The position numbers were made by a program, and so were the translations under genes. Shown here one piece after another: positions 1 to 15,758 of a stretch of 64,000 nucleotides of DNA (the stretch's first letter is position 1; the number at the start of each line of letters is the position of its first letter). The stretch is from Kushneria pakistanensis (GTDB taxonomy: Bacteria; Pseudomonadota; Gammaproteobacteria; Pseudomonadales; Halomonadaceae): NCBI RefSeq assembly GCF_014652795.1, contig NZ_BMZM01000001.1, positions 682,001-746,000 of the forward strand, given 5' to 3'. The notes under the pieces were generated by a model, which did not search any database, was not told the DNA's origin, and saw only the letters and a program-made list of their open reading frames with translations.

Positions 1-1902
1 GCCGAGAATGATCCACGTCATGGGATTGGTGAGCAGGGCGATTCCTGCCTTGCCGATGGCGCTGGCCATGAACAGGAACCCGCGCCCGGTGGCCAGCAGC
101 CCCTTGCTGAGTGCTGGCAGGATGCGACTGGTCAGCGAGTAGATTTTGCCGCCGAGGCCGCCGGTCTTGACGCCCAGCATGGCCAGCCCATAACGCACGG
201 TGACAATGGGGCCGAGCAGTGAGGCCAGCATGAGGGTAAGCGCGCCGCCTACAGCGACCAGTGCCGCGACACCGGCGGCGACCTTGGCGATGGTGCCGGC
301 GAGCTTAGGGTTTTCCTTGATCCAGTTGCCGACCGCTCGGGTGATGCTGGTAATCGACTGGATGAGGTCACGCAGGGCGCCATCATTGGTGTCGGTAATC
401 GAGATCCCGACTTCCTCCCACGCCGAGCGCAGGTTTTTGAGATCGCCACCGATGTTGTCGGCCATGACGCTGGCCATCTCGGCGTTTTCGCCATACGACT
501 TGCTGAGATTGTCGATCAGCTTATCCAGCTGGCCGCTGCTCATCTGGTTGACCAGTTCGGCCATGCCGCTGCCGGCCTCGGCACCGAACAGCTCCTGCAA
601 CGCTGCCTTGCGCTCGACGTTGCCCATGCCCTCGGTGGCCTTGTTGATGTCGCGCAGGATCTCCGGCATCGGGCGCATGTTGCCCTCGGCATCGGCGACC
701 TTGAGCCCCAGCTCATCCATGACGGCAGACGCCGCCTTGGTGGGCTTGGTCAGTCGGTCCATCATCGCGCGCATGGTGGTGCCGGCCTGACTGCCCTGAA
801 TACCGATGTTGCCCAGCAGACCGGCCATGGCGCCGGCTTCTTCCAGCGTCAGGCCCAGATCGGACCCGGCGCCGAGGTATTTCATGGTTTCGCCGAGCAT
901 TTCCAGATCGACGTTCGCACGGCTGGCCGTGCCGGACAGCACATCCGCGACGCGCTGCATGCCGCCGGCGGCCTCGACATCGATCTTGAATCCGCCGGCG
1001 ATGTTGGATGCGATATCGGCGGTGCGCCCCAGCTCGGTGTTATTGGCCAGCGCGAGGTTCAACACGTCACGCATGGATGCCTGGATCGCTTCGGCACTCA
1101 TGCCGGCGCGCAGCAGAAATTCCTGACCGGCGCCGACCTCGCCGGCACTGAATGCGGTCGAGCCGCCGAGATCGCGGGATTGCGCTTTAAGCGCCTTGAA
1201 CCGCTCATCGTCAGCCGTGAATCGGCCCACAGCCTGAACGGTACTCATCTGCTCGCCCCAGCCGATGCCGGGGGCCAGTAAACGACTGCCGGCGAATAGC
1301 GCACTGCCGCCGGTGGCCAGTCCGGTAAAGCCGGCGCTACGCATCGTATTCGCACGACCGAGGCCGCGCTGGTACTGATCCGCCGCCGCCGCTGCCTTTT
1401 TCTGAGCAGCGGTGATCTCGGTCATCTTGCGCTTTTGGGTATCGAGGGCGGTATTGGCCTGCCGGATCTTGTCGGCGAGGCGCTTCTCGCTACCGGTCAG
1501 ATCATCGGTGCTGGTACCGCCGCTTCTCAGGCTGGTACGCAGCTCTCCGAGGCGCCGGCGCTGATCGCCCAGCGTAGAGTTCAGGCGTTCGACTTCCTGC
1601 TGGGCTTTCAGAAAGCGATGCTGAAACTGCTGCGTCGGGGCGCTGGTGTTCTTGAGTTCGCTGCGCAGGTTGCGCATGCGCTCCTGCGCGCGGGCGAGCG
1701 CCTCGCTGTTGTCGCGCGTGGCGCTCTTGAGCTTTCGGAATGAGGACAGGTCGCGCTGCTGGCGTTCGAGCTGGCGTAGCTGCTCGCGTGATGCTTTCAG
1801 GGCTTCGGCGGTTTTGCCGCTGCCCTGGGTGATTTTCTTGAGTGGGCCGGTGGCTTTATCGACTGCGTTTAGCAGCACCTGCAACTTGAGATCGCGCGCC
1901 AT
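1..1902 (-). CDS. T: Phage tail tape measure protein, P2 gpT family (C-terminus beyond window)
   Basis: Sets tail length and is threaded through the tail tube before DNA ejection. The reading frame is open from the ATG at 1900-1902 to the left edge, giving 634 visible residues. The N-terminal third, after MARDLKLQVLLNAVDKATGP, is rich in Gln, Arg and Glu and looks like long coiled coil. The later visible part is Ala/Gly-rich with hydrophobic stretches, as is usual for tape measures. The start overlaps the 3' end of E' by 47 bases, as in P2 where T follows E+E'. The stop codon, and genes U and D, are outside the window. The family is assigned from position, size and composition. Confidence 0.88.
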   Translation of the reverse strand, partial: MARDLKLQVLLNAVDKATGPLKKITQGSGKTAEALKASREQLRQLERQQRDLSSFRKLKSATRDNSEALARAQERMRNLRSELKNTSAPTQQFQHRFLKAQQEVERLNSTLGDQRRRLGELRTSLRSGGTSTDDLTGSEKRLADKIRQANTALDTQKRKMTEITAAQKKAAAAADQYQRGLGRANTMRSAGFTGLATGGSALFAGSRLLAPGIGWGEQMSTVQAVGRFTADDERFKALKAQSRDLGGSTAFSAGEVGAGQEFLLRAGMSAEAIQASMRDVLNLALANNTELGRTADIASNIAGGFKIDVEAAGGMQRVADVLSGTASRANVDLEMLGETMKYLGAGSDLGLTLEEAGAMAGLLGNIGIQGSQAGTTMRAMMDRLTKPTKAASAVMDELGLKVADAEGNMRPMPEILRDINKATEGMGNVERKAALQELFGAEAGSGMAELVNQMSSGQLDKLIDNLSKSYGENAEMASVMADNIGGDLKNLRSAWEEVGISITDTNDGALRDLIQSITSITRAVGNWIKENPKLAGTIAKVAAGVAALVAVGGALTLMLASLLGPIVTVRYGLAMLGVKTGGLGGKIYSLTSRILPALSKGLLATGRGFLFMASAIGKAGIALLTNPMTWIILG

Positions 1903-2020
1903 GAGAGTCCTCGGGATTGGATCGCTTACGGGCGCGCTCGCGCCATTCCATCAGTTCGCGGATCGAGAAATCCGCGCAGTCGGTGGGGGTCCAGTGAAAC
2001 ACGATGGCCAGATCGGCCAT
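1856..2020 (-). CDS. E': Tail assembly protein gpE' (P2 GpE-type short ORF)
   Basis: A 54-residue ORF beginning MADLAIVFHWTPTDCADFSI and continuing with a Glu/Arg-rich RELMEWRERARKR stretch. This is the typical short P2 GpE-type tail protein: hydrophobic beta start, FHW, then a helix with WRERA. In P2 this frame is mainly expressed as the C-terminal part of a gpE+E' fusion made by -1 frameshifting. Here the frame is open upstream of the ATG back to the slippery site at 2080-2086, so the same holds. It overlaps the start of the tape measure gene. The internal ATG has no strong ribosome binding site, which also favours expression by frameshift. It is easily missed because it is short. Confidence 0.85.
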   Translation of the reverse strand: MADLAIVFHWTPTDCADFSIRELMEWRERARKRSNPEDSHGARSQVAGAAKRSR

Positions 2021-2046
2021 CGCGTCCTCAACGGATGAAGGGAGGT

Positions 2047-2367
2047 TTATGCGGCTTCGCCCTTCACCCGCTTCGAGACCAAAAAACCGGCGATCTCGCC
2101 GCCGAGCTGGACCAGATCGGCGGGGTCCATCTGGCGCGCTTCATGGTCGGTGAGGCTGGGCACTGACAGGCGCGGGATCAGTTTCATGATCGCGTCGGTC
2201 TGGAGCTGCAACACGTCGGAGAGATTGACGCCGCGCAGCTCGCCAGCGGTGGGCTTGCGCACGCTAATGCTGTCGATGGTCTGCTCGCCGCGAACGATGG
2301 GCGTATCCAGCTCGATGGCTTCACTGACGTGGGCGGTGTTGGTGGCTTTCTCTTTGGCCTGGGCCAT
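2047..2367 (-). CDS. E: Phage tail assembly chaperone gpE
   Basis: A 106-residue protein starting MAQAKEKATNTAHVSEAIEL and ending at the TAA at 2047-2049. It has the fold pattern of the gpE / Mu gp41-like tail assembly chaperones (short, with PIVRGEQTIDSISVRKPTAGE in the middle). I chose the ATG at 2365-2367 because it is preceded by GGAGAAAGACC, a good ribosome binding site, and because family members begin there. An in-frame upstream ATG at 2538 would add 57 mostly hydrophobic residues (see separate entry). Near its 3' end lies a T TTT TTG heptamer in the correct phase for -1 frameshifting into E', giving a fusion of about 170 residues. It lies between the tail tube gene and the tape measure, where chaperones of long-tailed phages are found. 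Confidence 0.88.
   Translation of the reverse strand: MAQAKEKATNTAHVSEAIELDTPIVRGEQTIDSISVRKPTAGELRGVNLSDVLQLQTDAIMKLIPRLSVPSLTDHEARQMDPADLVQLGGEIAGFLVSKRVKGEAA
2080..2086 (-). promoter_or_regulatory. Programmed -1 ribosomal frameshift site (T TTT TTG) joining E to E'
   Basis: On the minus strand the end of gpE reads GGT TTT TTG, i.e. a T TTT TTG heptamer in the zero frame (residues 95-96 of gpE). After a -1 slip the frame reads on without a stop through the E' ATG at 2018-2020 to the TAA at 1856-1858. That gives 96 plus 74 codons, a fusion of about 170 residues. P2 is known to use this same heptamer at this place. What is seen: heptamer, phase and open frame. What is inferred: that frameshifting occurs here. 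Confidence 0.85.
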
Positions 2368-2538
2368 GGTCTTTCTCCAGTTGATGCACGGCATTCGGGC
2401 GCCGCTTGCGATGAAATAAACGAGCGTTACAGGAATGCTCCATGACCAGCTGGGGTAGTCCTCGATCATGCCGATGACGTAGATCCACGACGCGACGATG
2501 GTCAGCAGGGCGCAGCACAGGCCACGGGTAGCATTCAT
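2368..2538 (-). other. In-frame hydrophobic extension upstream of gpE, possible small membrane ORF
   Basis: Between FII (ends 2553) and the likely gpE start lie 57 codons in frame with gpE, starting at an ATG at 2536-2538 with AGGA seven bases upstream. They encode two hydrophobic stretches (LLTIVASWIYVIG and SIPVTLVYFIA) separated by an acidic loop, as in a small two-helix membrane protein. There is no stop before gpE, so translation from here would give a 163-residue membrane-linked gpE. It could be a small gene that lost its stop, or simply non-coding. No family recognised. Confidence 0.35.
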
Positions 2539-2552
2539 GCGGTGATCCTTTC

Positions 2553-3065
2553 TCAGATGCCGAGGGCGCGGCGGCGCTTGGCCAGCCGGTCCTCGCCGTT
2601 GACCTTGAACACGTAGTTGGGGATATCGATCTCGATCTTGGTCGAGCCGTCGATCACCAGCTTGTAGTAGCTGAGCGTGGTGGTGACGCTGTGCTCGGTG
2701 TTCTCTCCGTTCTGGGCGTCGCCCATGTCGATCTCGGTGTGGCGCCCGCGCATGACGACCTCGACGGCGACCACTTCGTCGACATCGTCGCGCTCATAGC
2801 TGCCGGTCATGCGCAGCAGATCCGCGTCGAGTCGCGAGCTGCCGAAATTGTCGAACACACTTTCGACCAGACCGCCGACGGTCCACTGGCAGGTCATGAG
2901 GCCGTCCTGCCCCATGTCGATACCGACCGGTCCATCCATGCCACCGCCGCGCCATTCCTCGATCTTGCGGGTGAGGGTGGGCAGGGTGACGGACTGGATG
3001 ATGCCCTTGTAGGAATTACCGTTGCCGAACAGGTTCAAGCCCTTGAGTTTGTTGGGTAGTGCCAT
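2553..3065 (-). CDS. FII: Phage major tail tube protein gpFII
   Basis: Forms the inner tube of the contractile tail. The protein has 170 residues, the usual length for P2 FII (about 172), and starts MALPNKLKGLNLFGNGNSYK. The conserved core contains GMDGPVGIDMGQDGLM and, near the C-terminus, YKLVIDGSTKIEIDIPNYVF followed by a basic RLAKRRRALGI tail typical of the family. The ATG has CAGGAG upstream at good spacing. It lies 14 bases downstream of the sheath gene FI and is part of the FI-FII-E-E'-T operon. Confidence 0.95.
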   Translation of the reverse strand: MALPNKLKGLNLFGNGNSYKGIIQSVTLPTLTRKIEEWRGGGMDGPVGIDMGQDGLMTCQWTVGGLVESVFDNFGSSRLDADLLRMTGSYERDDVDEVVAVEVVMRGRHTEIDMGDAQNGENTEHSVTTTLSYYKLVIDGSTKIEIDIPNYVFKVNGEDRLAKRRRALGI

Positions 3066-3079
3066 GGTTTATCTCCTGC

Positions 3080-4261
3080 TCAGCCGGCGTTTACGCGGTC
3101 GGCGAAATCGGCCAGATATGAATCGGTGATGCGCTGCTGGAATCCCAGATCTTCCAGCGGGGGCACCGGCGTGTAGTCGTAATCGATGCGCAGCTTGCCG
3201 CCCTTGAGTGAGGTCTCATCGTTGAGTGCCTCATTCAGCCAGGCGTTGCCATCGACGATCAGGCCCAGCGCCTTGAGTTCTGAAAACTTGGCGTTGATAC
3301 CCTCGATGATGTCGCGGGCGAGGCTCGGGTGCAGGGGCTTGTCGACCGCCCACATATGGGCCTCGGCGATGGAGTCGGCGAGGATCTGCGCGGTGCGGGT
3401 GTAGTTCTCGAACGCGAAAAGGGACGTCGGGCCGGCGCAGGTGCGCGAGCCCCAGAAACGAAACCCGTCGCGCTGGATCAGGGTGGTGACATCCGCCGCG
3501 TTCAAAACGCCGGCGTCGGTGTTGGGGTTTTGCAGTGACCAGAACACGTCGGCGCTGATGCCGGTCACGCCGTTAACGGCGACGTTTGAAAGGGTCTTGT
3601 GCCAGCCGATCTCGCTGTCGATTTTGGCGCGCAGGCCGAGGGCGCAGGCGACGGCGCTGATGGTGGCCGTCTCGGCGGCGGTAGTGTCGAACGCCTCGAG
3701 CTCGGGCCAGATGATCATCAGCTCGCGAGCGCCGAACTGGTCGCGGTAAGCGGTCACGTCAAAGATCGTGGTGCAGTCGTGGGCGTAGCTGTAGACGAAC
3801 GCGCGCAGATCCTGCGCGATGCTGACCAGCGCCGTGGTGACGGCCTGATTATCGAGGCCCGGTGCGCCGAGAATGCGCGGCGTGACGCCGAGAGATGCGC
3901 TGGCCGAGAGCAGCGCCTGCGCGCCGGTGCGGCGGCCAGACTCGTCGACGGTGCCGATGACGTTCGCGGTGGTCTCGCCAGCGTCAGCGCCTTCTTCCAC
4001 ACGCACGGCGACGATGATGGGCTTGGTCTGCGACTCGATGGCTGTCAGCGTGCGGCGCAGGGTGCCTTGGGTGCCGGCCTTGCCAATAGCGGTCGAGACG
4101 TTGGTGATGAGCGTTGCACGATTGAGCGGGAACGCCTCGGGGTCGGCATCGGCGCTGGTGCAGACGATGCCGATGACGGCGGTCGAGACTGTGCGAATGA
4201 CGCGGGTGCCGTCGTTAATCTCAACAACGCGCACACCGTGGTGGTATTGGTCGAATGCCAT
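3080..4261 (-). CDS. FI: Phage tail sheath protein gpFI
   Basis: The outer contractile sheath subunit, 393 residues (P2 FI is 396). It starts MAFDQYHHGVRVVEINDGTR and carries family features such as the WGSRTCAGP segment in the C-terminal half and a DRVNAG end. First gene of its operon. The ribosome binding site is weak (AGGT, eight bases upstream). A copy of the shared late-promoter dyad lies at 4347-4365, 86 bases upstream of the start, so transcription is probably switched on with the other late operons by an Ogr/Delta-type activator. Confidence 0.96.
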   Translation of the reverse strand: MAFDQYHHGVRVVEINDGTRVIRTVSTAVIGIVCTSADADPEAFPLNRATLITNVSTAIGKAGTQGTLRRTLTAIESQTKPIIVAVRVEEGADAGETTANVIGTVDESGRRTGAQALLSASASLGVTPRILGAPGLDNQAVTTALVSIAQDLRAFVYSYAHDCTTIFDVTAYRDQFGARELMIIWPELEAFDTTAAETATISAVACALGLRAKIDSEIGWHKTLSNVAVNGVTGISADVFWSLQNPNTDAGVLNAADVTTLIQRDGFRFWGSRTCAGPTSLFAFENYTRTAQILADSIAEAHMWAVDKPLHPSLARDIIEGINAKFSELKALGLIVDGNAWLNEALNDETSLKGGKLRIDYDYTPVPPLEDLGFQQRITDSYLADFADRVNAG

Positions 4262-4346
4262 GTCGGTACCTGATCAGGTGAGCGGGCAGAATCGGTTCAG
4301 GGCTTCATGGTGTGGCGCGGGGCAGGGCAGTGCGAGCGGCGGGCGT

Positions 4347-4365
4347 TGTAAAATTAGGGTTTACA
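4347..4365. promoter_or_regulatory. Late-operon dyad, copy 1 (upstream of FI)
   Basis: TGTAA-N9-TTACA with perfect 5-base arms. Together with 16 bases on its FI-facing side it shares 23 identical bases with the copy at 9651. It sits 86 bases upstream of FI and 20 bases upstream of the plus-strand cargo gene at 4386. P2-family late promoters carry a TGT/ACA dyad near -55 that binds Ogr/Delta; if this is centred at -55, FI transcription would start near 4301. P2 spacing is, from memory, N12 between TGT and ACA, and here it is N13. The dyad is seen; the activator assignment is inferred. Confidence 0.7.
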
Positions 4366-4385
4366 TAAAGTCGAAGGATATGAGC

Positions 4386-5012
4386 ATGGAGCCAATGACA
4401 CAGGCATTAACCAAAGTCATGACTTGGGCAGCTCAAAAGGGCTATGAAAAATTTACTCTTGCTCGACTGGAGAGATTCTTGTCCCAAGCGGAACAGGGAG
4501 GTGTGACAGTTGATGAGCTTACTGATACAGAGCACCGATTTGCTCATTTCGTTTCTATGGTCAGGGCTCTGGAAAGCTGCTCAAACAATGAAATGGCTGA
4601 TTACTTGGCTGCCCTGATGATAGGTGGCGCACAGTCTGGAAACGCGGATAAAAAGCCTGACATTTTTCATGCCGTCTTGAATGGTTTGGGAAGCATGACA
4701 AAAACTGAGGTCAATATACTATTCAAGATGCATCGGCTAGAGCTTTTCGAAGACGCTCAGCCCGGTGGATATAAGGAGGATAAAGTTACCCAGTTAGTAT
4801 CCGAATGCATGAGCGATCTCGGAATTGATGAGGCTCTTCTGGCCGCCATACTCAACGGCATGATCAGAACCGGCTTCGTTACTCCGCCACCCTCTGGATA
4901 TGGTGGGCACGTGACTAGGAACAGTAATCTGCTTACTCAAAGCGCGAGAGATCTGTTCTTTTATATAGATTATTCGAGGCTCTCAAGACCCGGTGTGCCC
5001 GGGCCTTTGTAG
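4386..5012 (+). CDS. Prophage cargo (moron) protein of unknown function, Z/fun slot
   Basis: A 208-residue soluble, mainly helical protein with no signal peptide or membrane segment. It is opposite in strand to all flanking late genes and visibly more AT-rich, so probably a separate acquisition. Of two in-frame ATGs (4380, 4386) I chose the second because GAAGGA lies seven bases upstream of it. The second half has a helix LGSMTKTEVNILFKM, then LLAAILNGMIRTGFV, then LLTQSARDLFFYID. This order resembles the winged-helix-like end of Abi-alpha/DUF4393-type proteins, but that is only a weak resemblance by eye. In P2 the boundary between G and FI holds the phage-exclusion gene Z/fun. A role in superinfection exclusion is therefore plausible but unproven. 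It ends 10 bases from the end of G, tail to tail. Confidence 0.75.
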   Translation: MEPMTQALTKVMTWAAQKGYEKFTLARLERFLSQAEQGGVTVDELTDTEHRFAHFVSMVRALESCSNNEMADYLAALMIGGAQSGNADKKPDIFHAVLNGLGSMTKTEVNILFKMHRLELFEDAQPGGYKEDKVTQLVSECMSDLGIDEALLAAILNGMIRTGFVTPPPSGYGGHVTRNSNLLTQSARDLFFYIDYSRLSRPGVPGPL

Positions 5013-5022
5013 TGTATACGGC

Positions 5023-5607
5023 TCAAACGGTGACCAGCGCTTCGAGCTGATCGATAAAAGGCTGGACCGTTTCCATCATGTCGGCATCATCGGCGGCATC
5101 ACGGATCGCGGCTTTACCGGTGAGCCGGATGCGGCGCACGTTCTGGAGCAGATCCTCGGCGTGGGCGGCGGCCTCGGCGATCTGCTGGGCGGCGTCTTCC
5201 ACGCCCAAACCTTCGGCGGTGGCGTAGCTCTGGATCGACTCGGGCACCTCGGCGTCGGGATTGTTTCGGTAGTCGGCCAGTGCCTGGGCGACGAGCTGAT
5301 ACTCGGCATCGAGATACTGGCCGATGGATCGGTCGGATGCGCGGATCCGGTCGGCAGTGGCATCGATCCAGTTGATGGCCGCTGCTTTACGGACATCGAC
5401 CGGGTCAGGGTCGAGCGTGACCCAGCAGGGCTGACCGTCTTCGTTTGCGCCGCGCGCCTTGCCAACCGGCGGCGCGCCCGCAAACTCATTAAAGACTGAC
5501 TCGCTGACCTCTAGAGCATCATCCGGCAGGCTTCCAGATTTCTTATATCTGGAAGCCAATTCCAATGGGTAAAACGCGTTTGTTTTGGTGCTAAAGAGAT
5601 AGTTCAT
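5023..5607 (-). CDS. G: Tail fibre assembly protein gpG-like
   Basis: Probable chaperone for folding or attachment of the tail fibre. I chose the ATG at 5605-5607 (MNYLFSTKTNAFYPLELASR), giving 194 residues; an upstream extension runs into the fibre gene. The N-terminal MNYLFS-x-NAFYPLEL and the following segment on a residue-by-residue wall of polar helices are typical of tail fibre assembly proteins. The C-terminal two thirds are Ala/Glu-rich helix. It starts one base after the stop of the fibre gene and is the last gene of the V-G operon. These proteins usually co-vary with the fibre C-terminus. Confidence 0.82.
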   Translation of the reverse strand: MNYLFSTKTNAFYPLELASRYKKSGSLPDDALEVSESVFNEFAGAPPVGKARGANEDGQPCWVTLDPDPVDVRKAAAINWIDATADRIRASDRSIGQYLDAEYQLVAQALADYRNNPDAEVPESIQSYATAEGLGVEDAAQQIAEAAAHAEDLLQNVRRIRLTGKAAIRDAADDADMMETVQPFIDQLEALVTV

Positions 5608-5608
5608 A

Positions 5609-7156
5609 TCAGTACCCGATTGCGAGATAGCTATAAGTGGCCGTGTTACGTCCGCCGTTATACATATCGAAATGCGTCGTCTTCCTATCGCCCACGTTAA
5701 TCGGATTTCCGACGTCAGGAGTCGCAGTCCCATTTAGATACACGGGAAACACATGAAAGCACTGATTCGCAAAGGCGATAGGGAAACTCGTCGTCGCCCA
5801 CGACGTGCCCGGAACGGATGCAGAAAAACCCCATTGAACTGCAAGCCCACCGAGCCACGTCGGAAATACAATCCAACCGTTAGCACTAATGCGGTAACTA
5901 ACACCCCACCTCAATTTCTTGGGCGTGACTGCGGTAGCGTCATCAGTGCCGGCATTAACCTGCGATTGTGTCGCGACCCTCATCAAACCGAAAACACTCT
6001 CGGTTGCTTGCTTGATCCAGCCCTTTAGCGTTTTGGTCGTGACTGCCTTCTCGACCTCGCCTTTATCCACTTCGGCCTGCGTGGCCGCGATGGCGTTGAC
6101 AATAGTGTCAGGGTTAGCGGTGTGCGTGATCTCACCCCACTGCGTCCATCCCTTTCCGCGCACATATGAGCGCAGGAACATCCCAACGCCACCATCTGCG
6201 AATGCAATCTGGTTAGCGTAATCATCGGGCCGTGTGACCCAAAGCACGTAACCGTTGGGCACCGGATGCTTGCCCCTGAATGTGCCTGACTGATCGCCGC
6301 GCGCGTAATACAGGCCGAGGTTGCCTGTTGCGTCGACGTCATAACAGGGCCGGTCAGGTGCCGGGATGCCCCAGCCAAACGCGCCAACCGGCATCACGTT
6401 GCCCTTGTTCTCGCCAACCGCTTTACGCGATGCATCTCCCAGCAGTGCGAGCACATCCTGCACCGTGCCAGCGTCACCAAACACTGACAGCAGCTGATCG
6501 AGCGTGATCTGCCCGGCTTTATGCGCTTCCTTCTCCGCCCGGTGATCATCGAGCTGCGCCTTGCCACCGGCAGGGGTCTGGGCTGCTTTCGATTCTTCCC
6601 CCTTCCTTGACTCGGCGAGCGTTGCAAAGCGCACAAATCCCTTGTTTTTGGTATCGGCGTCGGGGTGATTGCGGCTTTTCTCATGCGCGGCGAGGGTGTC
6701 ATCGACGTACTTGCGCGAGGCCATCACGACGCTGGGGTCGATCCGCAGTGTTACCGCGCTGGTGTCGGTGACTTCCATCACGAATCTGATTGTTTGCGTT
6801 CGGGCGGCGCCTTCCGAGAGCTGCGGTTTATAGGTCTCGGGGTAATTGCCGTAGGCGATCAGGTTGCCATCGGTGTCGTAAAGCCCGACCTCACGGATGG
6901 TCCAGCCACCGACCTCGGCGGGCAGCACCTGCTCGACGACGGTCCAGTTCGGGTTATTCGGGTCGGTGGTGGTCTGGTTGATCGGGCCACGGCGCACCTC
7001 ATTGAACAGGCGCGTGACCGATGCGTCAGGTTTGGGCAGTTTGCCGCCGCCGTCACCGATGGCCATCTCGGCGATGGTCAGGGGCTGGCCATAGGCGATG
7101 GCATTGGCCAGCAGCCCCTGCCCGGTTTTGGTCAGCAAGGTAAAAAACTGGCTCAT
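5609..7156 (-). CDS. H: Tail fibre protein gpH
   Basis: Receptor-binding fibre, 515 residues (P2 H is about 669, so this is shorter). The N-terminal ~155 residues, starting MSQFFTLLTKTGQGLLANAI and including EVGGWTIREVGLYDTDGNL, form the baseplate-attachment domain of P2-like fibres (DUF3751 type). The middle has repeated KGFVRFAT and GLMRVATQSQVNAGTDD units of the collar/fibre-repeat type. The C-terminus (from about residue 430, with PTWLGGLAVQWGF and an end in SYLAIGY) looks like the gp53-like receptor-binding tip. It overlaps the I gene by four bases (ATGA). The tip would set host range. Confidence 0.92.
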   Translation of the reverse strand: MSQFFTLLTKTGQGLLANAIAYGQPLTIAEMAIGDGGGKLPKPDASVTRLFNEVRRGPINQTTTDPNNPNWTVVEQVLPAEVGGWTIREVGLYDTDGNLIAYGNYPETYKPQLSEGAARTQTIRFVMEVTDTSAVTLRIDPSVVMASRKYVDDTLAAHEKSRNHPDADTKNKGFVRFATLAESRKGEESKAAQTPAGGKAQLDDHRAEKEAHKAGQITLDQLLSVFGDAGTVQDVLALLGDASRKAVGENKGNVMPVGAFGWGIPAPDRPCYDVDATGNLGLYYARGDQSGTFRGKHPVPNGYVLWVTRPDDYANQIAFADGGVGMFLRSYVRGKGWTQWGEITHTANPDTIVNAIAATQAEVDKGEVEKAVTTKTLKGWIKQATESVFGLMRVATQSQVNAGTDDATAVTPKKLRWGVSYRISANGWIVFPTWLGGLAVQWGFSASVPGTSWATTSFPIAFANQCFHVFPVYLNGTATPDVGNPINVGDRKTTHFDMYNGGRNTATYSYLAIGY

Positions 7157-7788
7157 AGGGCCTCACTCATTGTCATGGGGTAGATGGTGATCGTGTCGAA
7201 CGCCTCGACCGTGGCGGCGTGATAGAGCGCGCCGGTGGAGAGGATGGAATCAGGGGTGTAGGGATACACGGTGGTGGTATCACCGTCGTAGGCGGCCAGA
7301 CCCACATAGAGCGGTCCGCGCGTCTCGCCGAGCAGATCCAGCCCGATGATGTGGCGCGTCAGCGGTTTGGCATCGAATACCAGCCGGGTCAGCTCGGTAT
7401 ACATCTCGTCGGTGATGCCGGTATCCAGCACACCGATGCGCAGGGCGAACGTGCCCGGCTCACCCTCGGGCACCATCTGCCACCATTCATCGACCTCCAG
7501 CAGATAGCCGAGCGGCTCGACGACGCGCCGCAATGCCGAAATCGTGCCCTTATGCGAATGGACGTAGTGCGCCGCGCGCACGACGCCACGCTTGGCGCTC
7601 TCGCTCCACGACGTGTCCCAGCGGTCGACCGAAAATGCCCACGCCAGATAGGGCAGCAGATGCAGCGGGCAGTCATCCGGGCTCATGAGCGTGCGCAGCG
7701 GTACCGGCATGCGCTCCAGATCGGCGAGCGCCTCGGCGGCGAGGCGCTCCAGCTGGGTACCGTTGGGCGGCAGCAGCCTACTCATCAT
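7153..7788 (-). CDS. I: Baseplate protein gpI
   Basis: Phage tail protein I, 211 residues, part of the P2 baseplate wedge. The N-terminus MMSRLLPPNGTQLERLAAEA and the PYLAWAFSVDRWD motif are diagnostic of the family. There are two adjacent ATGs (7788 and 7785); the second has the better distance to GGGGG, so the true start may be one residue shorter. It overlaps J by 11 bases and H by four, as expected for a translationally coupled baseplate operon. Confidence 0.94.
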   Translation of the reverse strand: MMSRLLPPNGTQLERLAAEALADLERMPVPLRTLMSPDDCPLHLLPYLAWAFSVDRWDTSWSESAKRGVVRAAHYVHSHKGTISALRRVVEPLGYLLEVDEWWQMVPEGEPGTFALRIGVLDTGITDEMYTELTRLVFDAKPLTRHIIGLDLLGETRGPLYVGLAAYDGDTTTVYPYTPDSILSTGALYHAATVEAFDTITIYPMTMSEAL

Positions 7789-8689
7789 TGCCCCCGAGCG
7801 TCAGGGTGACGCCGGTGCAGTGCGATGCCTGGCTGTCATCGAGCACGACATCGGCGGCGGGGCTGGTCAGTTCGACGCGCTGAACGCCTTCGACGTGCAA
7901 TGCGGCATAGACCGCTGACAGGCGGATATCGCGCCCGAGCCGGCGCTGCTCGGCGACGTAGGCCGCCGCCTTGGCGCGTGACGCGGCCAGAATCGGCTCC
8001 TGCTCGGGGCCGGGGTAGAGATAGAGCGTGGCCTCAATCGAATAATCGACGATGGTGGCCGACTGGACGGTGAGCCGGTCGCCGACCGGGCGCACGTCCT
8101 CGGCGGATAGTGCGGTCTGCACGATGTCGAGCAGATCCGGCGTGGCTTCGCCGGTGCCGAGCTGTGACAGCACGGTGACGACGGCCACGCAGGGGCTGGG
8201 GCTGACGGCGGTAGCATCGGCCACCCGGCCATCGGCTGAGAGGGCGTGAAATACGTAGGCCCCGGCCGGGCCGGCGACGCTTAGACCCTCGAAGGCCCGC
8301 TGCGCGCGCAGGCGCAGACGGGTATCGGTCTCATGGGTCGGCGGGACCGGCGGCACGGCGTCAGGGTCGCCGGGATCAATCATCAGGCGCTCGACGTTGA
8401 AATTCGCGGCGAGCTGGTCGAGATCCGCGCCGGTGGCGAACGCCAGCATGTTGGCGCGGGCGGCCTCGTTGACGCGCTGGCGCAGCACGACCTCGCGATA
8501 GGCGTTTTCCTGTAGCAGCTTGTTGAGCGGTTCGGACTCCAGCGCGAGCCGGGCTTCGATATCTGTGCGCTCGTCTTCGGGGTAGAGCGATACCAGCCGC
8601 GCCTTGCGCTCGGCGAGGATGGCCTCGAAATCGACGTTTTCGACAACGTCCGGTGCCGGCAGCTGGGAGAGATCAATCGGGCTACTCAT
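7778..8689 (-). CDS. J: Baseplate assembly protein gpJ
   Basis: Baseplate wedge protein J, 303 residues (P2 J is 302). It starts MSSPIDLSQLPAPDVVENVD and has the family pattern of a long helical N-terminal part with YREVVLRQRVNEAARANMLA, then GADLDQLAANFNVER, then alpha/beta modules. The start overlaps the W stop by four bases (ATGA). It works with W and I to form the wedge around the spike V. Confidence 0.95.
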   Translation of the reverse strand: MSSPIDLSQLPAPDVVENVDFEAILAERKARLVSLYPEDERTDIEARLALESEPLNKLLQENAYREVVLRQRVNEAARANMLAFATGADLDQLAANFNVERLMIDPGDPDAVPPVPPTHETDTRLRLRAQRAFEGLSVAGPAGAYVFHALSADGRVADATAVSPSPCVAVVTVLSQLGTGEATPDLLDIVQTALSAEDVRPVGDRLTVQSATIVDYSIEATLYLYPGPEQEPILAASRAKAAAYVAEQRRLGRDIRLSAVYAALHVEGVQRVELTSPAADVVLDDSQASHCTGVTLTLGGNDE

Positions 8690-9036
8690 GCATCACCCCT
8701 TAGCGGCACTGTCAGGTCGATGTTTTCCCCGGTATCGACGCGCCGCCCGGTGACGGTGAGCAGCAGGCGACCGGGGCGAGTGGTGTCGACGGTGCGCTGC
8801 ACCTGCATGACGCGCAGGCGGGGCTCCCATTTCATCAAGGCGACGACGGTGGCCGAGTAGGCGCGCAGAGCGGTTGCGCCGGTCAGCGGCTGGTCGATGA
8901 GATCCGGCAGCAGGCTGCCGTATTCGCGACGCATGACGCGCGCGCCGATGGGCGTGGTGAGGATGTCGGCCACGCTCTGGCGAATATGCTCGACGCCGGT
9001 CAGCGAGGCGCCGGTGTGGCGATCCATTCCGCTCAT
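8686..9036 (-). CDS. W: Baseplate wedge protein gpW (gp25-like)
   Basis: A 116-residue member of the GPW/gp25 lysozyme-like family of contractile tails. Key motif: IRQSVADILTTPIGARVMRREYGS, here shortened to its core ILTTPIGARVMRREYGS, followed by LPDLIDQPL. These proteins nucleate sheath assembly at the baseplate. It overlaps V and J by four bases each. Confidence 0.96.
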   Translation of the reverse strand: MSGMDRHTGASLTGVEHIRQSVADILTTPIGARVMRREYGSLLPDLIDQPLTGATALRAYSATVVALMKWEPRLRVMQVQRTVDTTRPGRLLLTVTGRRVDTGENIDLTVPLRGDA

Positions 9037-9578
9037 TGTGGCGTCCCCGAGGTATCCGAGCCGGATCTGACGCCGGTCGTCTTGTGATTGACCAGGCTGA
9101 TGCCGGACGCGATAGCGTCAGAATCGGTGGTGATGTTGTGGGTGACGTGCAGGGTGCCCTTGATCACGACCGGGCCGGTGACGGTGACGCCGGCAGGCGC
9201 GGTAATGGCCGCCGAGCCGGGCAGATCCGCGCGCAGATGGCTGGCCGCGTGGTCGTACTCGATCACGGCCCCATCGGGCAAACGTAAGCGGGTGAGGTTC
9301 GGGTCATCGCTCGCAGCGGGATGGGCGTTGCTGTTGATGGCGCCCAGCACCACGGCCCCGGCCAGCTCACCGCCGGGGGCCAGCAGCACGACCTGCTCGC
9401 CGATGGTCGGCGGGTTCCATGTGCGCGACTGGCCGGCGCGGGATTCGAGCCACGGCAGCCATTCGGTCAGCAGATCGCCGGTGGTGACGCGAACGCGCGC
9501 GGCGGCGTGATCGATCTCGGCGATGGTGCCGAGTCGGATCATGTTCTGCATGAGGCGGGCAAGTTCGACGGGATGCAT
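9033..9578 (-). CDS. V: Baseplate spike protein gpV
   Basis: Central membrane-piercing spike at the tail tip, 181 residues (P2 V is 211). The OB-fold domain is seen in RLGTIAEIDHAAARVRVTTG and the G-E-QVVLLAPGGEL segment. A beta-helical part follows, with APAGVTVTGPVVIKGTLHVT. I chose the ATG at 9576-9578, which has GGAG five bases upstream, over a GTG two codons earlier. The last residues lack an obvious HxH iron-binding pair of the apex type, although one NHKTT is present. First gene of the V-W-J-I-H-G operon, with the late dyad at 9651. Confidence 0.93.
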   Translation of the reverse strand: MHPVELARLMQNMIRLGTIAEIDHAAARVRVTTGDLLTEWLPWLESRAGQSRTWNPPTIGEQVVLLAPGGELAGAVVLGAINSNAHPAASDDPNLTRLRLPDGAVIEYDHAASHLRADLPGSAAITAPAGVTVTGPVVIKGTLHVTHNITTDSDAIASGISLVNHKTTGVRSGSDTSGTPQ

Positions 9579-9650
9579 CGGCACTCCGGGCGGTAAACGG
9601 GTATGCGGCTATCGTCGGCAGGTGCGTGGGCTGATGCGAGCGGCGGGCGT

Positions 9651-9669
9651 TGTAAAAGCGGGCGTTACA
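9651..9669. promoter_or_regulatory. Late-operon dyad, copy 2 (upstream of V)
   Basis: TGTAA-N9-TTACA, with 23 bases (9635-9657) identical to the copy at 4331-4353 and a right half almost identical to copy 3. It lies 73 bases upstream of the V start and 51 bases upstream of the plus-strand cargo gene at 9721. A centre at -55 would place V transcription start near 9605. Probable Ogr/Delta-type activator site. Confidence 0.7.
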
Positions 9670-9720
9670 GCGATACATCTTCTGGCCGATACCCATGTGG
9701 ACTTATGCATAGGATCCGTT

Positions 9721-10449
9721 ATGGAAGATCAGCTGATTTCACGTTATCGAGATATTCTGCTCGACACAGACTTCACGAGTCTGGAAGCAGAAAAGGCCAA
9801 CTATGCAGGGGTATTTCTACCGGTACCCAGCCCGGCCTTTGGGCAGTCAGGGTTCAAGCTGATGGTGGTAGGGCAGGAAACGCGCAGCTGGAACGGATCT
9901 CTCGAAAAGCTGCTGAAAGCGATAACGGATCAAACCTTGTCCGAGTATCTGACAGACGCCACGGGCAAGTATCTTGCCCAGCTGGAAACCCCACTTCAAA
10001 GTGCCTTCCGAAGCTTTCTGACAGGTAGCGAAAAGCGGCTCGGTATGATTGCCTCGGAAATCTACTGGGCCAATCTGCTGGCGTGCTCCTATCGTAAAGC
10101 CTCACCCCGAGGCCGCCCGAAAGCCGAATATGAAACGCTTCGTGCTCTTTCGAGCCAGTTGCTGGCCACGCAAATCAGGTTGCTTAAACCCGATGCAATT
10201 TTGTTTCTGACAGGTCCAAACCATGACAAAACCATCAAAGCGATGAGCGAAGAGCACTTCGCGGGATATCAGCATTCCCAGGTAGAGGTGCCGCGGCAGC
10301 TCTGGTTTTTTCAGATGAACGGTATTCCTTGCTGTCGTACGACACATCCGCGTTACCGAGCCGGCTACAAATACTGCATTGATGCCATTGAGACCATTGC
10401 TCAATTCAAGGAAACAGCATCGGGGCCCATGTCTATGCCGGCTTCATAA
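9721..10449 (+). CDS. Prophage cargo (moron) protein, possible uracil-DNA-glycosylase-like fold, orf30 slot
   Basis: A 242-residue soluble protein opposite in strand to the late genes. The ATG at 9721 is preceded by AGGATCCGTT, a good binding site. Visible elements are GFKLMVVGQETRSW near residues 40-55 (hydrophobic strand, then G-Q-E), IRLLKPDAILFLTGPNHDK near 155-175, and CRTTHPRYRAGY near 205. The layout (strand with a short polar motif, a middle strand KPDAILFLTG, then an HP-containing loop) recalls the uracil-DNA glycosylase superfamily, which has an N-terminal acidic motif and a late HP motif. I cannot confirm it. In P2 the S-V boundary holds orf30, a moron. It overlaps the end of S by six bases, tail to tail. 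Expression may come from the same dyad region as V. Confidence 0.75.
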   Translation: MEDQLISRYRDILLDTDFTSLEAEKANYAGVFLPVPSPAFGQSGFKLMVVGQETRSWNGSLEKLLKAITDQTLSEYLTDATGKYLAQLETPLQSAFRSFLTGSEKRLGMIASEIYWANLLACSYRKASPRGRPKAEYETLRALSSQLLATQIRLLKPDAILFLTGPNHDKTIKAMSEEHFAGYQHSQVEVPRQLWFFQMNGIPCCRTTHPRYRAGYKYCIDAIETIAQFKETASGPMSMPAS

Positions 10450-10899
10450 TTCCTTGCTCGACAAGTGATCCAGTAGTGATTGCTGTACGAGACTTCGGTC
10501 GTGATCGGTGAAACCCAGCAGCTCGCGCTGTTCGTACTGCACGCGCGGGCCGTTGATCGCGACGCGATCCCGCAGGCCGTACTGGTGGGTTTTGGCAATG
10601 CTGGCCACCTGTCCGAAAAAACCGACCTCGGCGCCATCGGTGCCGGTACGCACGCGCAGATATTTGGCGGTGCGCAGCTTGCCGAACATCGCTTTCCGCC
10701 TGATGGCGCCTTTTTGATCCTGTGACTTTCGCGGGGCGTAGCGGCTGCCGTCGGGATTCTTCTGCGCCTTGATGCGCTCGCGCTGGGATCGGCGCAGGTC
10801 GGTGGCCACGACGCGCGCCAGCCGGCGGCGTTCTTTCGCGTCCAGCTTGGCCAGCAGTGGCGCGGCCCAATCTTCCAGGCGCTCGATGTTGTCAGCCAT
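10444..10899 (-). CDS. S: Tail completion protein gpS
   Basis: Phage virion morphogenesis protein, 151 residues (P2 S is 150), needed for tail completion. It contains ATDLRRSQRERIKAQKNPDG followed by a Lys/Arg-rich stretch and VRTGTDGAEVGFFG, typical of the family, and HQYGLRDRV near residue 105. It overlaps R by eight bases and converges on the cargo gene at 9721-10449. Last gene of the O-to-S operon. Confidence 0.94.
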   Translation of the reverse strand: MADNIERLEDWAAPLLAKLDAKERRRLARVVATDLRRSQRERIKAQKNPDGSRYAPRKSQDQKGAIRRKAMFGKLRTAKYLRVRTGTDGAEVGFFGQVASIAKTHQYGLRDRVAINGPRVQYEQRELLGFTDHDRSLVQQSLLDHLSSKEL

Positions 10900-11371
10900 T
10901 GGCGCCCTCCGGCTCGACGTAGTCGCTCAGGTGCCGGTCGTTGGCCATGAGCTGCCAGCGGCGCGGGCCACAGGTCTCGATATCAAAGCGGGGCATGCGG
11001 TGGCTGATGTTGATCTGGCCGGTGTCGCAGTCACGTTTCGCCACGACGCGTTCGGTGATCTGGACGCGCAGAGCAAGATCCACGGCGTCGTTATTGAGGA
11101 TCTCGACCTCGAATTTAATCGCCTCGGCGGGCACCAGATCCGGCTGATAGACGGCGAGCCAGTCGAGCAGTGGGATCATCACGGTGTCGACGTCATCGGC
11201 AAAATCGGTCAGCACCAGCTGCGCGGTGAACGTGTAGCCGTGGGAAAGATTGGCGCCGGGGGCAAATTCGATAGTGCCGTCCTCGACGAACGTGAGCAGC
11301 TGGTCGGGGTCGCGCTGCAGGTGGGGCACGGCGTCGATCAGGTACTGGCGCAGGGCGGTGAGCTTTTTCAA
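10892..11371 (-). CDS. R: Tail completion protein gpR
   Basis: P2 gpR family, 159 residues, acts with S in tail completion. It starts KKLTALRQYLIDAVPHLQRD, with RDPDQLLTFVEDG, which is the usual pattern. The start codon is TTG (11369-11371), supported by a perfect AAGGAGG eight bases upstream; no ATG fits. The C-terminal part has PRRWQLMANDRHL. About 100 bases without a gene separate it from the lysis genes upstream. Confidence 0.92.
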   Translation of the reverse strand: MKKLTALRQYLIDAVPHLQRDPDQLLTFVEDGTIEFAPGANLSHGYTFTAQLVLTDFADDVDTVMIPLLDWLAVYQPDLVPAEAIKFEVEILNNDAVDLALRVQITERVVAKRDCDTGQINISHRMPRFDIETCGPRRWQLMANDRHLSDYVEPEGANG

Positions 11372-11473
11372 GGATTAACCCTCCTTTTGGATGATATTAA
11401 TTCTCATCCGTTAATGCGATATTTCTTATTCAAGGACTGGCTCTCACCGGGGCAACGCACATGGATGTGCTTT

Positions 11474-11731
11474 TCAGTTCCCTTCCTCATGACATGCAAT
11501 CACCGCATCGACTTCTGCAGCACACCGCGCCCAGGCGGCCTCGGTCTTTTCAAGCTGCAGGTGCAGCTCACCATTATTGATCGGATGACTCGCCGGTAGC
11601 GTGCAGGGCGTCGGGGTCGCGCACTGATTGACGATAAGCGGCGGCGCCAGTGACGGCGGAGCGCTGACGCAGCCGGATAACATCAGCAGGCAGGCGAGTG
11701 CCGGCCCATTCGCGGATCTCGTCGTTATCAC
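11474..11731 (-). CDS. lysC: Rz1-like outer-membrane spanin lipoprotein (LysC), nested in Rz
   Basis: An 85-residue lipoprotein in a different frame from Rz. It starts at a GTG (11729-11731) with AGGAG seven bases upstream. A short signal sequence ends in LACLLMLSGC, a clear lipobox with Cys at residue 21, and is followed by a Pro-rich segment VSAPPSLAPP as in other Rz1 proteins. Its first 158 bases overlap the end of Rz, the classical overlapping spanin arrangement. It would bind Rz across the periplasm and fuse inner and outer membranes at lysis. The choice of GTG start is from the ribosome binding site. Confidence 0.82.
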   Translation of the reverse strand: MITTRSANGPALACLLMLSGCVSAPPSLAPPLIVNQCATPTPCTLPASHPINNGELHLQLEKTEAAWARCAAEVDAVIACHEEGN

Positions 11732-12008
11732 GTTGCAGCTCCTGTATCTGTTCGAGTCGGTCGGATGCAGTTCGGGCCAGCTCGGTCTGCTGTTCGGCGA
11801 GCGCCCGGCGCTGCGATTCGAGGCGCTGGGCGTTTTCCCAGAGGGCATCGATCACGACCTGCCGGCGCTGGTTTTCCTGCTGGGCCGTATCGCGCTGCTG
11901 CTCGGCCTGATCGGCGCGAGCGTTGGCGGCGTTGCCGCGCTGCCAGAGTGCCCAGCCGCCGAGGGTGAGCCCGGCGATCAGGGCGCCGGTGATGATCAGG
12001 CGTTTCAT
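11574..12008 (-). CDS. lysB: Rz-like inner-membrane spanin (LysB)
   Basis: A 144-residue type II membrane protein. It has an N-terminal anchor (MKRLIITGALIAGLTLGGWA), then a long Gln/Glu/Arg-rich coiled coil to about residue 100, and a short C-terminal tail. I chose the ATG at 12006-12008, which overlaps the endolysin stop by four bases; a longer version would run back into the endolysin gene. The C-terminal part overlaps Rz1. It is the inner half of the spanin complex in the last step of lysis. Confidence 0.85.
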   Translation of the reverse strand: MKRLIITGALIAGLTLGGWALWQRGNAANARADQAEQQRDTAQQENQRRQVVIDALWENAQRLESQRRALAEQQTELARTASDRLEQIQELQRDNDEIREWAGTRLPADVIRLRQRSAVTGAAAYRQSVRDPDALHATGESSDQ

Positions 12009-12496
12009 ACGTCGTTTACTGCGTAGCGCAGGTTTTCCGCGACCCGGCGCGACCAGCCCTTGCCGAACGTGGGCCACGTCGAGAGGCGGGTATAAAACGC
12101 CTGCCGCTCGGCATTGAGCAGCACGATCAGCGATAGCGTGTCATGCCCGTTGATCGCGTCGAGCGTGATGGGCCCGACGATGCCGTCATCAGCGACATCC
12201 GCCGCGCGTTGCAGCATACGGATCGCGTTGCCGATACCGCTGTTCACAGCGATGTCGAACAGCTGGTACCCGATGGCGCCGTCGTACTGATCGCAGCGAG
12301 CGCGCAGCCAGTAGGCGGTCAGATAGATCTCGCGGGCACGCTCGCGGGTCAGATCGCGCATGTCACCTCGATAGCCGGCCTCGCGTGCGGTGCGTTTGGT
12401 GATGCCCCACCTAGTCTCGCCGCCCGGATCATTGGGGTGATTGACATAGCCACCCTCATGGCCGATCAGGCGCTCGAATGCCTCGCTGAATGTCAT
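12005..12496 (-). CDS. Endolysin, glycoside hydrolase 108 type
   Basis: Peptidoglycan-degrading lysis enzyme, 163 residues. It starts with FERLIGHEGGYVNHPNDPGG, where Glu14 in HEGGY is the catalytic glutamate of the GH108 (N-acetylmuramidase) family, followed by RWGITK. The C-terminal half carries the partner peptidoglycan-binding domain (DDGIVGPITLDAIN). There is no signal peptide, so release depends on the holins encoded just upstream. It takes the place of P2 gene K but is a different enzyme type from the lambda R-like P2 K. Confidence 0.93.
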   Translation of the reverse strand: MTFSEAFERLIGHEGGYVNHPNDPGGETRWGITKRTAREAGYRGDMRDLTRERAREIYLTAYWLRARCDQYDGAIGYQLFDIAVNSGIGNAIRMLQRAADVADDGIVGPITLDAINGHDTLSLIVLLNAERQAFYTRLSTWPTFGKGWSRRVAENLRYAVNDV

Positions 12497-12834
12497 GCGT
12501 TGACCCTCACGATGTGGGCGACGTTGCCGCGTGCGCGGTACACCAGCACAGCGCAGACGGCGAGCAGAATCACAAACGACCAGCTGATCGGCAGGCCGAC
12601 ATAACGCCCGGCGAGAATCTGGATCGCGAGCGTGCCGCTACCCACGAACAGCCCATAGGCCAGCCATGAAATGGGGCGGCGATAGCGCGCGCCCCGGCGG
12701 CGGTAGGTGAGCAGCCGGCCACAGATGGCCAGCGCGATGAACAGGGCCAGCAGGGTGGGCAGCTGCTGGGGCTGCACCATCATCCATGCGTAGTCCTGGG
12801 GGAGTGGGATCAGAAAATAGGTGCTGATGCTCAT
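12493..12834 (-). CDS. Phage holin, three-helix type
   Basis: A 113-residue membrane protein with three hydrophobic segments (about residues 25-42, 55-75, 82-98) and Arg-rich loops between them (TYRRRGARYRRP), ending in a positively charged tail. This matches the 3-TM putative holin group (DUF754-like) found in proteobacterial P2-like phages. It overlaps the upstream holin by one base and the endolysin by four. Having two holin-like genes in a row suggests one is the pore former and the other an antiholin or pinholin partner; I cannot tell which. Confidence 0.75.
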   Translation of the reverse strand: MSISTYFLIPLPQDYAWMMVQPQQLPTLLALFIALAICGRLLTYRRRGARYRRPISWLAYGLFVGSGTLAIQILAGRYVGLPISWSFVILLAVCAVLVYRARGNVAHIVRVNA

Positions 12835-13187
12835 TACTTGCGACCTCCCGGAAACAGACGGCTGATGTCGAGTTTCTTGACGCCCTCAATCACACGCAGC
12901 GAAAACGTGACCACGGCGACGGCGGTCAGAAATGCCGGCAGCGCGGTGGTGTCCCAGGTGGGGTAGAGGTGTTGGGCGAGCGTTGGCCCGGCGAGATATC
13001 CCATCATGATCGAGATCACCAGATAGCAGATCCGCTCGATGATGGAGAGTTCTCGGGCCGATACGACGAACAGCGACGCGCCGGCAAATGCTCCGATCAG
13101 GGCGCTGACGTCGACCCCGATCATGAGACTGGCCAGCGTTACCCCGACGGTACCGGCGGCGACAGCTGTAGTGGATGGTTCTGCCAT
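12834..13187 (-). CDS. Putative phage holin
   Basis: A 117-residue membrane protein: MAEPSTTAVAAGTVGVTLAS, hydrophobic segments at about 10-40, 50-70 and 80-97, and a basic C-terminal tail (KLDISRLFPGGRK). It resembles the putative holins that follow gene X in Pseudomonas and Halomonas P2-like prophages. AGGAAC stands four bases upstream of the ATG. It lies 18 bases after X and is coupled to the second holin. Confidence 0.78.
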   Translation of the reverse strand: MAEPSTTAVAAGTVGVTLASLMIGVDVSALIGAFAGASLFVVSARELSIIERICYLVISIMMGYLAGPTLAQHLYPTWDTTALPAFLTAVAVVTFSLRVIEGVKKLDISRLFPGGRK

Positions 13188-13205
13188 GTCAGTTCCTGTG
13201 CGTAG

Positions 13206-13415
13206 TCAATCCCACAGCTGCACGCGGGTGCGCTGCGGTTGTGTATTTATATCGGGCAGCGTGACCGGGGTTCCCATTGGCAGGATTGGCCCGAGGTCGC
13301 ATAGACCGGGGTTGGCTTTAAACACGCGCTCGATCACGCCATCGGTGCGCCCGTAATGCCGGTAGCAAATGTGATCGAGGGTGTCGTTTTGTTGCGCGCG
13401 AACGGTGCGGGCCAT
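13206..13415 (-). CDS. X: Tail protein gpX (LysM-like)
   Basis: A 69-residue tail protein X. The sequence ARTVRAQQNDTLDHICYRHY, GRTDGVIERVFKANPGL and the late LP-x-GTPVTLPDI segment form one LysM-like module, as in P2 X. It probably joins tube and baseplate or terminator. Its start overlaps the L stop (ATCA on the plus strand). P2 X has 67 residues, so the length fits. Confidence 0.95.
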   Translation of the reverse strand: MARTVRAQQNDTLDHICYRHYGRTDGVIERVFKANPGLCDLGPILPMGTPVTLPDINTQPQRTRVQLWD

Positions 13416-15744: not shown

Positions 15745-15758
15745 GTTGTGGGCGTCTC

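Follow-up and report, generated by a model that had tools for sequence, protein, structure and literature searches.

Two accessory-gene sites at late-operon boundaries of a P2-like prophage in Kushneria pakistanensis

The Z-region and orf30 have been described as variable loci of P2-like phages (PMC3091744), and for a second defence-enriched locus of these phages three selected defence systems are presented together with fun (PMC9519451). In the P2 record, fun(Z) occupies the G–FI gap and Orf30 the S–V gap. Both genes are antisense, and activator sites are annotated at pO/pP, pV and pF. The Ogr-type site of P2 is described as a dyad, TGT-N12-ACA, before the P, O, V and F operons (PMC3931495). 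The tin/old (TO) hotspot near cos is likewise reported as a fixed seam where P2-like phages carry accessory defence genes (PMC9122126), but it sits elsewhere, between replication gene A and portal Q.

We analysed a 64,000-nucleotide stretch of Kushneria pakistanensis DNA (the window), in whose P2-like prophage two low-GC plus-strand ORFs, 4386–5012 (208 aa; cargo 1) and 9721–10449 (242 aa; cargo 2), lie between late operons. Cargo 1 is flanked by the tail sheath gene FI (3080–4261, minus strand), the first gene of the F operon, and the tail-fibre assembly gene G (5023–5607, minus strand; possible earlier start, to 5733), the last of the V operon. Cargo 2 is situated between the baseplate gene V (9033–9584, minus strand), the first of the V operon, and the tail completion gene S (10444–10899, minus strand), the last of the O operon. 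Pfam confirms the identity of all four flanking genes. The GC content of cargo 1 and cargo 2 is 47.7% and 52.1%, respectively, versus 62.5–63.4% for the late operons. A terminator-like stem is found where cargo 1 and G converge (4989–5003, plus strand), possibly by chance, as the stretch has 2 versus 0.6 expected.

The preliminary description had placed two plus-strand cargo genes at late-operon boundaries, equated the slots with the Z/fun and orf30 loci of P2, and had each gene end beside or over the last gene of the previous operon, all of which holds. In a P2-type late region these loci are defined by their exact placement at G–FI and S–V, which both seams share; 10 nt separate the end of cargo 1 from the G stop (5023), and cargo 2 runs over the S stop (10444), with an overlap of 6 nt. 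The further statement that both genes start right beside a dyad is correct for cargo 1, the ATG of which is 20 nt away, and looser for cargo 2 (51 nt). The G–FI slot resembles P2 fun(Z) in place, antisense orientation, variable cargo and the adjoining FI activator site, but host family and cargo differ, and fun starts 293 nt from its activator site. The S–V slot resembles P2 orf30 in place, antisense orientation and a start near the activator site (14 nt in P2), whereas P2 Orf30 is annotated as hypothetical and cargo 2 is UDG-superfamily-like. A tblastn search of P2 proteins against the window gave no match of fun to cargo 1 at E ≤ 1e-3, and Orf30 did not match cargo 2.

Both boundaries were compared in 67 related prophage loci. 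The G–FI seam is filled in 52 of 63 assessable loci and the S–V seam in 13 of 60 (4 and 7 of the 67 are not assessable), with a filled/empty threshold of 350 nt and gene calls made by ORF-length heuristics. The 114 cargo ORFs fall into 67 clusters and include many unrelated genes; 3 of the 52 filled G–FI loci have no ORF of at least 75 aa. Among the relatives the content is therefore variable or absent, and the flanks of both seams are conserved, as is characteristic of the Z/fun and orf30 loci and as the preliminary description had anticipated. Pfam families in the 107 scanned ORFs (seven short or doubtful ones were omitted) include AAA/AbiEii-like, D12 methylase, HEPN, toxin-antitoxin and acyltransferase families, among the 25 of 28 families listed. 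It should be noted that the census leaves out strong FI places at G568:C16, G420:C5, G613:C8, G501:C19, G508 and G544, weaker or partial FI matches, and L199 (G008, FI 34% identical). Doubtful cases are L282, with a G match inside its "slot", and a few gaps of 400–620 nt; the alignment rows of L288 (A7) and L238 (A8) have their ends trimmed off.

Since the slots of relatives are filled by varied, unrelated genes or are empty, the data support cargo rather than structure. Both genes do lie within the tail region, and some slot ORFs of relatives run parallel to the late genes, as would be expected of late structural or assembly genes of the phage. Nevertheless, we regard such a role as extremely improbable: the genes are missing or replaced in four prophages of the same genus, whose FI and V are 74–94% and 69–87% identical, respectively, their GC content is low, and relatives of cargo 2 are present on 18 plasmid records. 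By the ORF-length heuristic, the cargo ORF closest to the dyad faces the late operon head to head, as previously claimed, in 42 of 49 G–FI and 8 of 13 S–V loci. It is parallel to the late genes in 7 of 49 and 5 of 13 loci, respectively, and those ORFs are thus possibly expressed late.

The dyad, TTGTAAAA-N7-TTACA, is present in exact copies at the F promoter (4346–4365; core TGT-N13-ACA at 4347–4365), at the V promoter (9650–9669; core 9651–9669) and, with no cargo, between O and P (16659–16678), where P2 has the common divergent site pO/pP. These are the only sites in the window at up to 3 mismatches (shuffle mean 0.29; 3 reached in 0 of 100 shuffles). The O/P copy is absent from the preliminary description. 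The positions at O/P, V and F agree with the late promoters of P2, with a spacing of N13 here versus N12 in the P2-type dyad. The dyad is very probably a late-promoter activator site, to which an Ogr-type protein presumably binds; the genome has a single Ogr_Delta gene, approximately 10 kb left of the window (G000:C1:671697–671837; PF04606, 51.1 bits, over the cut-off). In the census, a TGT-N12/13-ACA match precedes FI in only 30 of 67 loci and V in 32 of 67, so the dyad rule is true of part of the group; the match at −168 in L188 is probably other than the FI site of that locus.

The F and V copies are part of a block of 23 identical bases (4331–4353 and 9635–9657; 0.01 expected at up to 3 mismatches), which the preliminary description took for a control element that belongs to the slot and co-regulates the cargo. 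In keeping with this idea, transcription both ways from P2 pO/pP depends on one activator site, with annotated starts 55–56 bases from its centre. However, the O/P copy has no cargo, and empty boundaries retain the dyad at a similar frequency to filled ones (6 of 11 versus 24 of 52 at G–FI; 24 of 47 versus 8 of 13 at S–V). The spacing from late gene to dyad is near-fixed, whereas the cargo starts 8–232 nt from the dyad (24 of 26 values). Also, 15 of the 23 shared bases are on the late-gene side of the dyad (4331–4345, towards FI; 9635–9649 in the V copy), and the P2 spacing would put a reverse start within cargo 1 (around 4411, with the ATG at 4386) and within P2 Orf30. Co-regulation of the cargo by the shared block is therefore highly unlikely, and we abandon the notion that the slot brings its own control element.

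Instead, both seams are very probably the classical sites at which P2-like prophages carry accessory genes (morons), with a dyad that serves the late operon and cargo that is read separately. Foreign genes, most of them oriented against the late transcripts, would be tolerated in the gap that separates the end gene of a late operon from the activator site serving the next late promoter. The empty S–V seam is minimal, with the S stop commonly within the dyad: S ends ...TGTAA within the dyad in L173, L175 and L177, three loci of the same genus with an empty S–V seam, and the S stop coincides with dyad bases 3–5 in 14 of the 24 empty S–V boundaries that have a dyad match. Because of this overlap, an insertion must fall between the S end and the dyad; it would leave dyad and late promoter whole and supply S with a new stop. 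The terminal codons of S in our prophage are unlike those of relatives with an empty S–V site. The dyad would act for the late operon via the Ogr-type activator of the phage, and the cargo would be transcribed separately from the opposite strand, most likely in the lysogen, where it probably serves competition with other phages or host change. We infer both the expression of the cargo in the lysogen and its protective role; no sigma-70-like promoter was found before cargo 1 or cargo 2, and lysogenic expression is thus not predicted by the sequence.

The distance of only 20 nt between dyad and cargo 1 ATG means that any cargo 1 promoter lies on or behind the dyad. The shared element might hence act negatively on the cargo: with a cargo promoter on or directly next to the activator site, induction would turn the cargo off through the late activator and polymerase. 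Short gaps are also seen in L198, L240 and L241 (13–22 nt) and for P2 Orf30 (14 nt). However, we see no promoter at the start of cargo 1, and 11 of the 26 measured dyad–cargo distances are at least 79 nt, so overlap of promoter and dyad is no rule. We consider this switch possible but rather unlikely, and keep to accessory sites with separately read cargo.

Cargo 1 is mostly helical, and its C-terminal half is weakly winged-helix-like. It has no assignment in Pfam, PHROG, PADLOC or NCBIfam, a fold search with a model of modest confidence (pLDDT 71.5) gave no confident match, and no plasmid relative was found. Viral-contig scans with the single cargo 1 or cargo 2 protein as query gave no relative. 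The family is tied to the G–FI slot, where 9 of its 12 Halomonadaceae hits are located. Our best guess is that cargo 1 acts in exclusion as a single protein, with its winged-helix-like end used for sensing or DNA binding. An origin from Abi_alpha (PF14337) was considered and rejected, as none of 10 family members matches PF14337 at E ≤ 1 and hhalign against four Abi_alpha members gives a probability of <1%; L313, a remote relative of cargo 1, matches PF14337 weakly (E 0.016, below the cut-off), whereas cargo 1 itself does not.

Cargo 2 looks like a remote member of the uracil-DNA-glycosylase (UDG) superfamily, with a conserved E in the motif VGQE. Its Pfam UDG score is 18.7 bits, under the curated cut-off of 24.3, and 5 of 8 family members have a UDG match at E ≤ 0.1. 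The family profile matches UDG 4zbx with an E-value of 7e-4. In Foldseek, the first 26 rows are all UDG, SMUG1 or UdgX, with a best E of 0.024, none at or below 0.001, for a low-confidence model with a pLDDT of 53.0. PADLOC gives one match only (E 0.032). A viral-contig scan with the cargo 2 alignment found one relative, L204, and the phage records contain no cargo 2 match. The neighbours of 6 of the 18 plasmid relatives form no consistent defence island. Brig1 and Brig3, antiphage DNA glycosylases, are likewise UDG-superfamily products of accessory genes (PMC11078745, PMC13160076); the best structural match reported for Brig1, an S. tokodaii UDG (4ZBY is the entry modelled), is also the first-ranked entry for cargo 2 in our fold search. 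Base excision from foreign DNA is the most likely activity of cargo 2 in view of its superfamily, and a Brig-like antiphage role is plausible.

Taken to its furthest, the argument would make the seams self-silencing defence sockets, in which the dyad covers the cargo promoter so that the cargo is on in the lysogen and off late, and which hold a slot-loyal exclusion family (cargo 1) and an antiphage glycosylase (cargo 2). We judge this full combination improbable.

The slots themselves are already known from the P2 Z-region, orf30 and the published second P2 defence locus. Our analysis adds P2-like prophages of the Halomonadaceae to those with accessory loci at Z and orf30 and counts their filled and empty seams. 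It gives the insertion point at base level, in the gap from the S stop to the activator dyad of the late promoter, and corrects the idea of a shared repeat as cargo regulator. It also flags two uncharacterised cargo families as candidates for phage exclusion. If our reading of cargo 2 as a DNA-repair-type enzyme is true, it may guard the host against other viruses.

In the left part of the window, the late genes of a P2-like prophage of a Halomonadaceae bacterium are arranged mostly along the minus strand. Pfam identifies the sheath FI, the fibre assembly protein G, H, the baseplate proteins V and W, and S; a tblastn search using proteins of P2 and of the window places T to Q at 289–19618. Two genes run against this order on the plus strand at seams between late operons: cargo 1 (4386–5012) between G and FI, and cargo 2 (9721–10449) between S and V. 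Their GC contents are 47.7% and 52.1%, respectively, versus 62.5–63.4% in the surrounding operons. In the P2 record, fun(Z) is antisense between G and FI and adjoins the pF activator site, Orf30 is antisense between S and V and adjoins the pV site, and a third activator site is common to pO and pP. Dyads representing putative Ogr-type activator sites occupy the same three places in the window (4346–4365, 9650–9669 and 16659–16678). The cargo sites thus correspond to the P2 Z/fun and orf30 loci, as the preliminary description had proposed. The spacing of the dyad differs, being TGT-N13-ACA in the window and TGT-N12-ACA in the Ogr-dependent P2 late-promoter consensus (PMC3931495). The genome contains one Ogr_Delta gene, ∼10 kb left of the window.

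Sheath matches were found in 74 of 250 genomes, and 67 Halomonadaceae prophage loci, the window included, were taken for a census. Of the loci that could be assessed, 52 of 63 have a filled G-FI seam and 13 of 60 a filled S-V seam; 11 loci, including the window, have both. The 114 cargo ORFs of at least 75 aa form 67 clusters (46 singletons and 21 with two or more members), three of which are common to both seams. The late operon and the cargo ORF nearest the dyad are arranged head to head at 42 of 49 G-FI seams and 8 of 13 S-V seams. Within the 10 genomes of the window's genus, five prophages (window included) have an FI of 74% identity or more. All five have a filled G-FI seam, with cargo from five different clusters, and S-V is filled in two of them; this count excludes a distant sixth prophage (G008, 34%) and a second sheath locus in the window's genome. 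The head-to-head arrangement and the variable cargo previously suggested for these boundaries are therefore borne out among relatives. The second sheath locus (L002, G000:C6:25958-27070) is a distant contractile-tail locus with 30% identity.

It had also been suggested that the 23-base dyad block shared by the FI and V copies is a control element built into the slot. This is not supported: the dyad is not a part of the slot. The third copy, at O/P, has no cargo, and the dyad is present at empty seams. In the census, a match is found at 24 of 52 filled versus 6 of 11 empty G-FI seams, and at 8 of 13 filled versus 24 of 47 empty S-V seams. In viral contigs, TGT-N12/13-ACA precedes V in 77 of 80 loci (69 judgeable: 26 filled, 43 empty) and FI in 60 of 80, at −85 to −119. 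In the census, the dyad keeps a nearly fixed distance from the late gene (−91 to −110 for FI in 29/30; −65 to −108 for V in 32/32). Its spacing from the cargo start ranges over 8–232 nt for 24 of 26 measured cases; two further values are negative, probably through start miscalls. Fifteen of the 23 block bases fall on the late-gene side of the dyad, and in the same genus an almost identical block occurs where the V seam is empty (L173, L177). The presence of this dyad type before FI in only 30 of the 67 census loci counts against a general rule. The other 37 lack TGT-N12/13-ACA at the usual place; in two of them (L188, L189), a different repeat, GGTGTNAG ... TTTACACC, was seen by eye upstream of FI and may serve a diverged activator.

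At empty S-V seams of same-genus prophages, the S sequence is ...GGGCTGTAACGCCCG...TTTTACAACG, with the stop codon at dyad bases 3–5; 14 of the 24 empty seams that have a dyad show this arrangement. Where the seam is filled (13 loci), S stops at least 674 nt from V and clear of the dyad. Since the stop lies inside the dyad when the seam is empty and away from it when filled, cargo enters between S and the dyad and leaves the late promoter whole. One filled seam (L248) still has an S ending in TGTAA, like an empty seam.

P2 late transcription starts ∼55 bases from the activator-site centre (P2 record). With this spacing, transcription in reverse from the dyad would begin ∼6 nt before the ATG of cargo 2 and inside cargo 1, so activator-driven expression of full-length cargo 1 is unlikely. 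With only 20 nt between dyad and ATG, the promoter of cargo 1 would have to lie on or behind the dyad. From this geometry, an off-switch for cargo 1 by occlusion would be possible. No sigma-70-like promoter was found before cargo 1 or cargo 2.

The cargo 1 profile matches 12 of 275 Halomonadaceae genomes, nine of them at G-FI in P2-like prophages. The three elsewhere are a gene with no P2-like gene within 10.5 kb (L311), a 50-residue remnant (L312) and a remote relative (L313). Four named genomes with relatives belong to Halomonas (three) and Vreelandella (one). One of 50,697 phage records, vB_BpuM-ZY1, has a relative, also at G-FI. The family thus shows a strong, though not exclusive, link to this seam. 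The cargo 1 model is helical (pLDDT 71.5), with weak, non-significant matches to winged helix on the C-terminal side. Searches of Pfam, PHROG, PADLOC and NCBIfam assigned cargo 1 to no named family. A membrane-protein-like ORF lies beside cargo 1 in two prophages (L202:2999-3859, L203:3217-3996); its family has eight members in G-FI seams, and those tested gave no noteworthy Pfam or PADLOC match. The deposited host of phage vB_BpuM-ZY1 (L084, OR820920.1) is Bacillus pumilus. The phage's sheath shares 76% identity with that of the window, the other cargo 1 relatives are known from Halomonadaceae, and its endolysin is described as grouping with a Halomonas lysozyme (PMC11448403); the assigned host should be checked.

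Cargo 2 occurs three times in the P2-like census loci, always at S-V. Relatives beyond the census were found in five more of 390 genomes of the order, in a single viral contig (L204) and in 18 plasmid records. No P2 late gene was found around the five (17 kb each) or around the contig relative, one of these having an integrase match only. The plasmid relatives (e.g., L315, L317) are stand-alone genes annotated 'hypothetical protein' in many bacteria, and two of six inspected are near transposases and toxin-antitoxin genes. The Pfam UDG match of cargo 2 is sub-threshold (18.7 bits; cut-off 24.3), and five of eight family members match at E ≤ 0.1. The profile matches S. tokodaii UDG (E 7e-4), and the best fold matches of a low-confidence model are UDGs. 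Cargo 2 falls in PHROG 29550, where its function is given as unknown. The UDG-superfamily proteins Brig1 and Brig3 are reported to act against phages that carry modified bases (PMC11078745, PMC13160076), and a Brig-like role would be plausible for cargo 2.

The slot idea is already in print. PMC3091744, crediting Nilsson and Haggard-Ljungquist 2007, names the TO-region, Z-region and orf30 as three places in P2-like phages that very commonly hold genes foreign to P2; PMC9519451 describes fun and three defence systems, selected experimentally, at a second locus of P2-like phages enriched in defence genes, and PMC9122126 treats the cos-side hotspot. Among the titles listed in literature searches, none concerned G-FI/S-V seams in Halomonadaceae, the S stop inside the dyad, or the cargo 1 or cargo 2 families; PMC11131426 refers to a P2-like Halomonas phage on shape alone.

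A two-gene unit with a HEPN protein as its second gene occupies the S-V seam in one locus (L195:7589-8829) and the G-FI seam in another (L233:11137-12305), so some cargo is common to both seams. Pfam families in 107 cargo ORFs include, among the 25 of 28 families listed, DUF1508, Bro-N, acyltransferase 3, SGNH, HEPN, toxin-antitoxin parts, D12 methylase, sulfatase, levansucrase and an AAA/AbiEii-like ATPase; PADLOC (25 of 68 listed) gave, beside weaker matches, a single methylase and a single AriA (PARIS)-like ATPase. The seams thus carry defence-type, stability and host-change genes, together with many unknowns.
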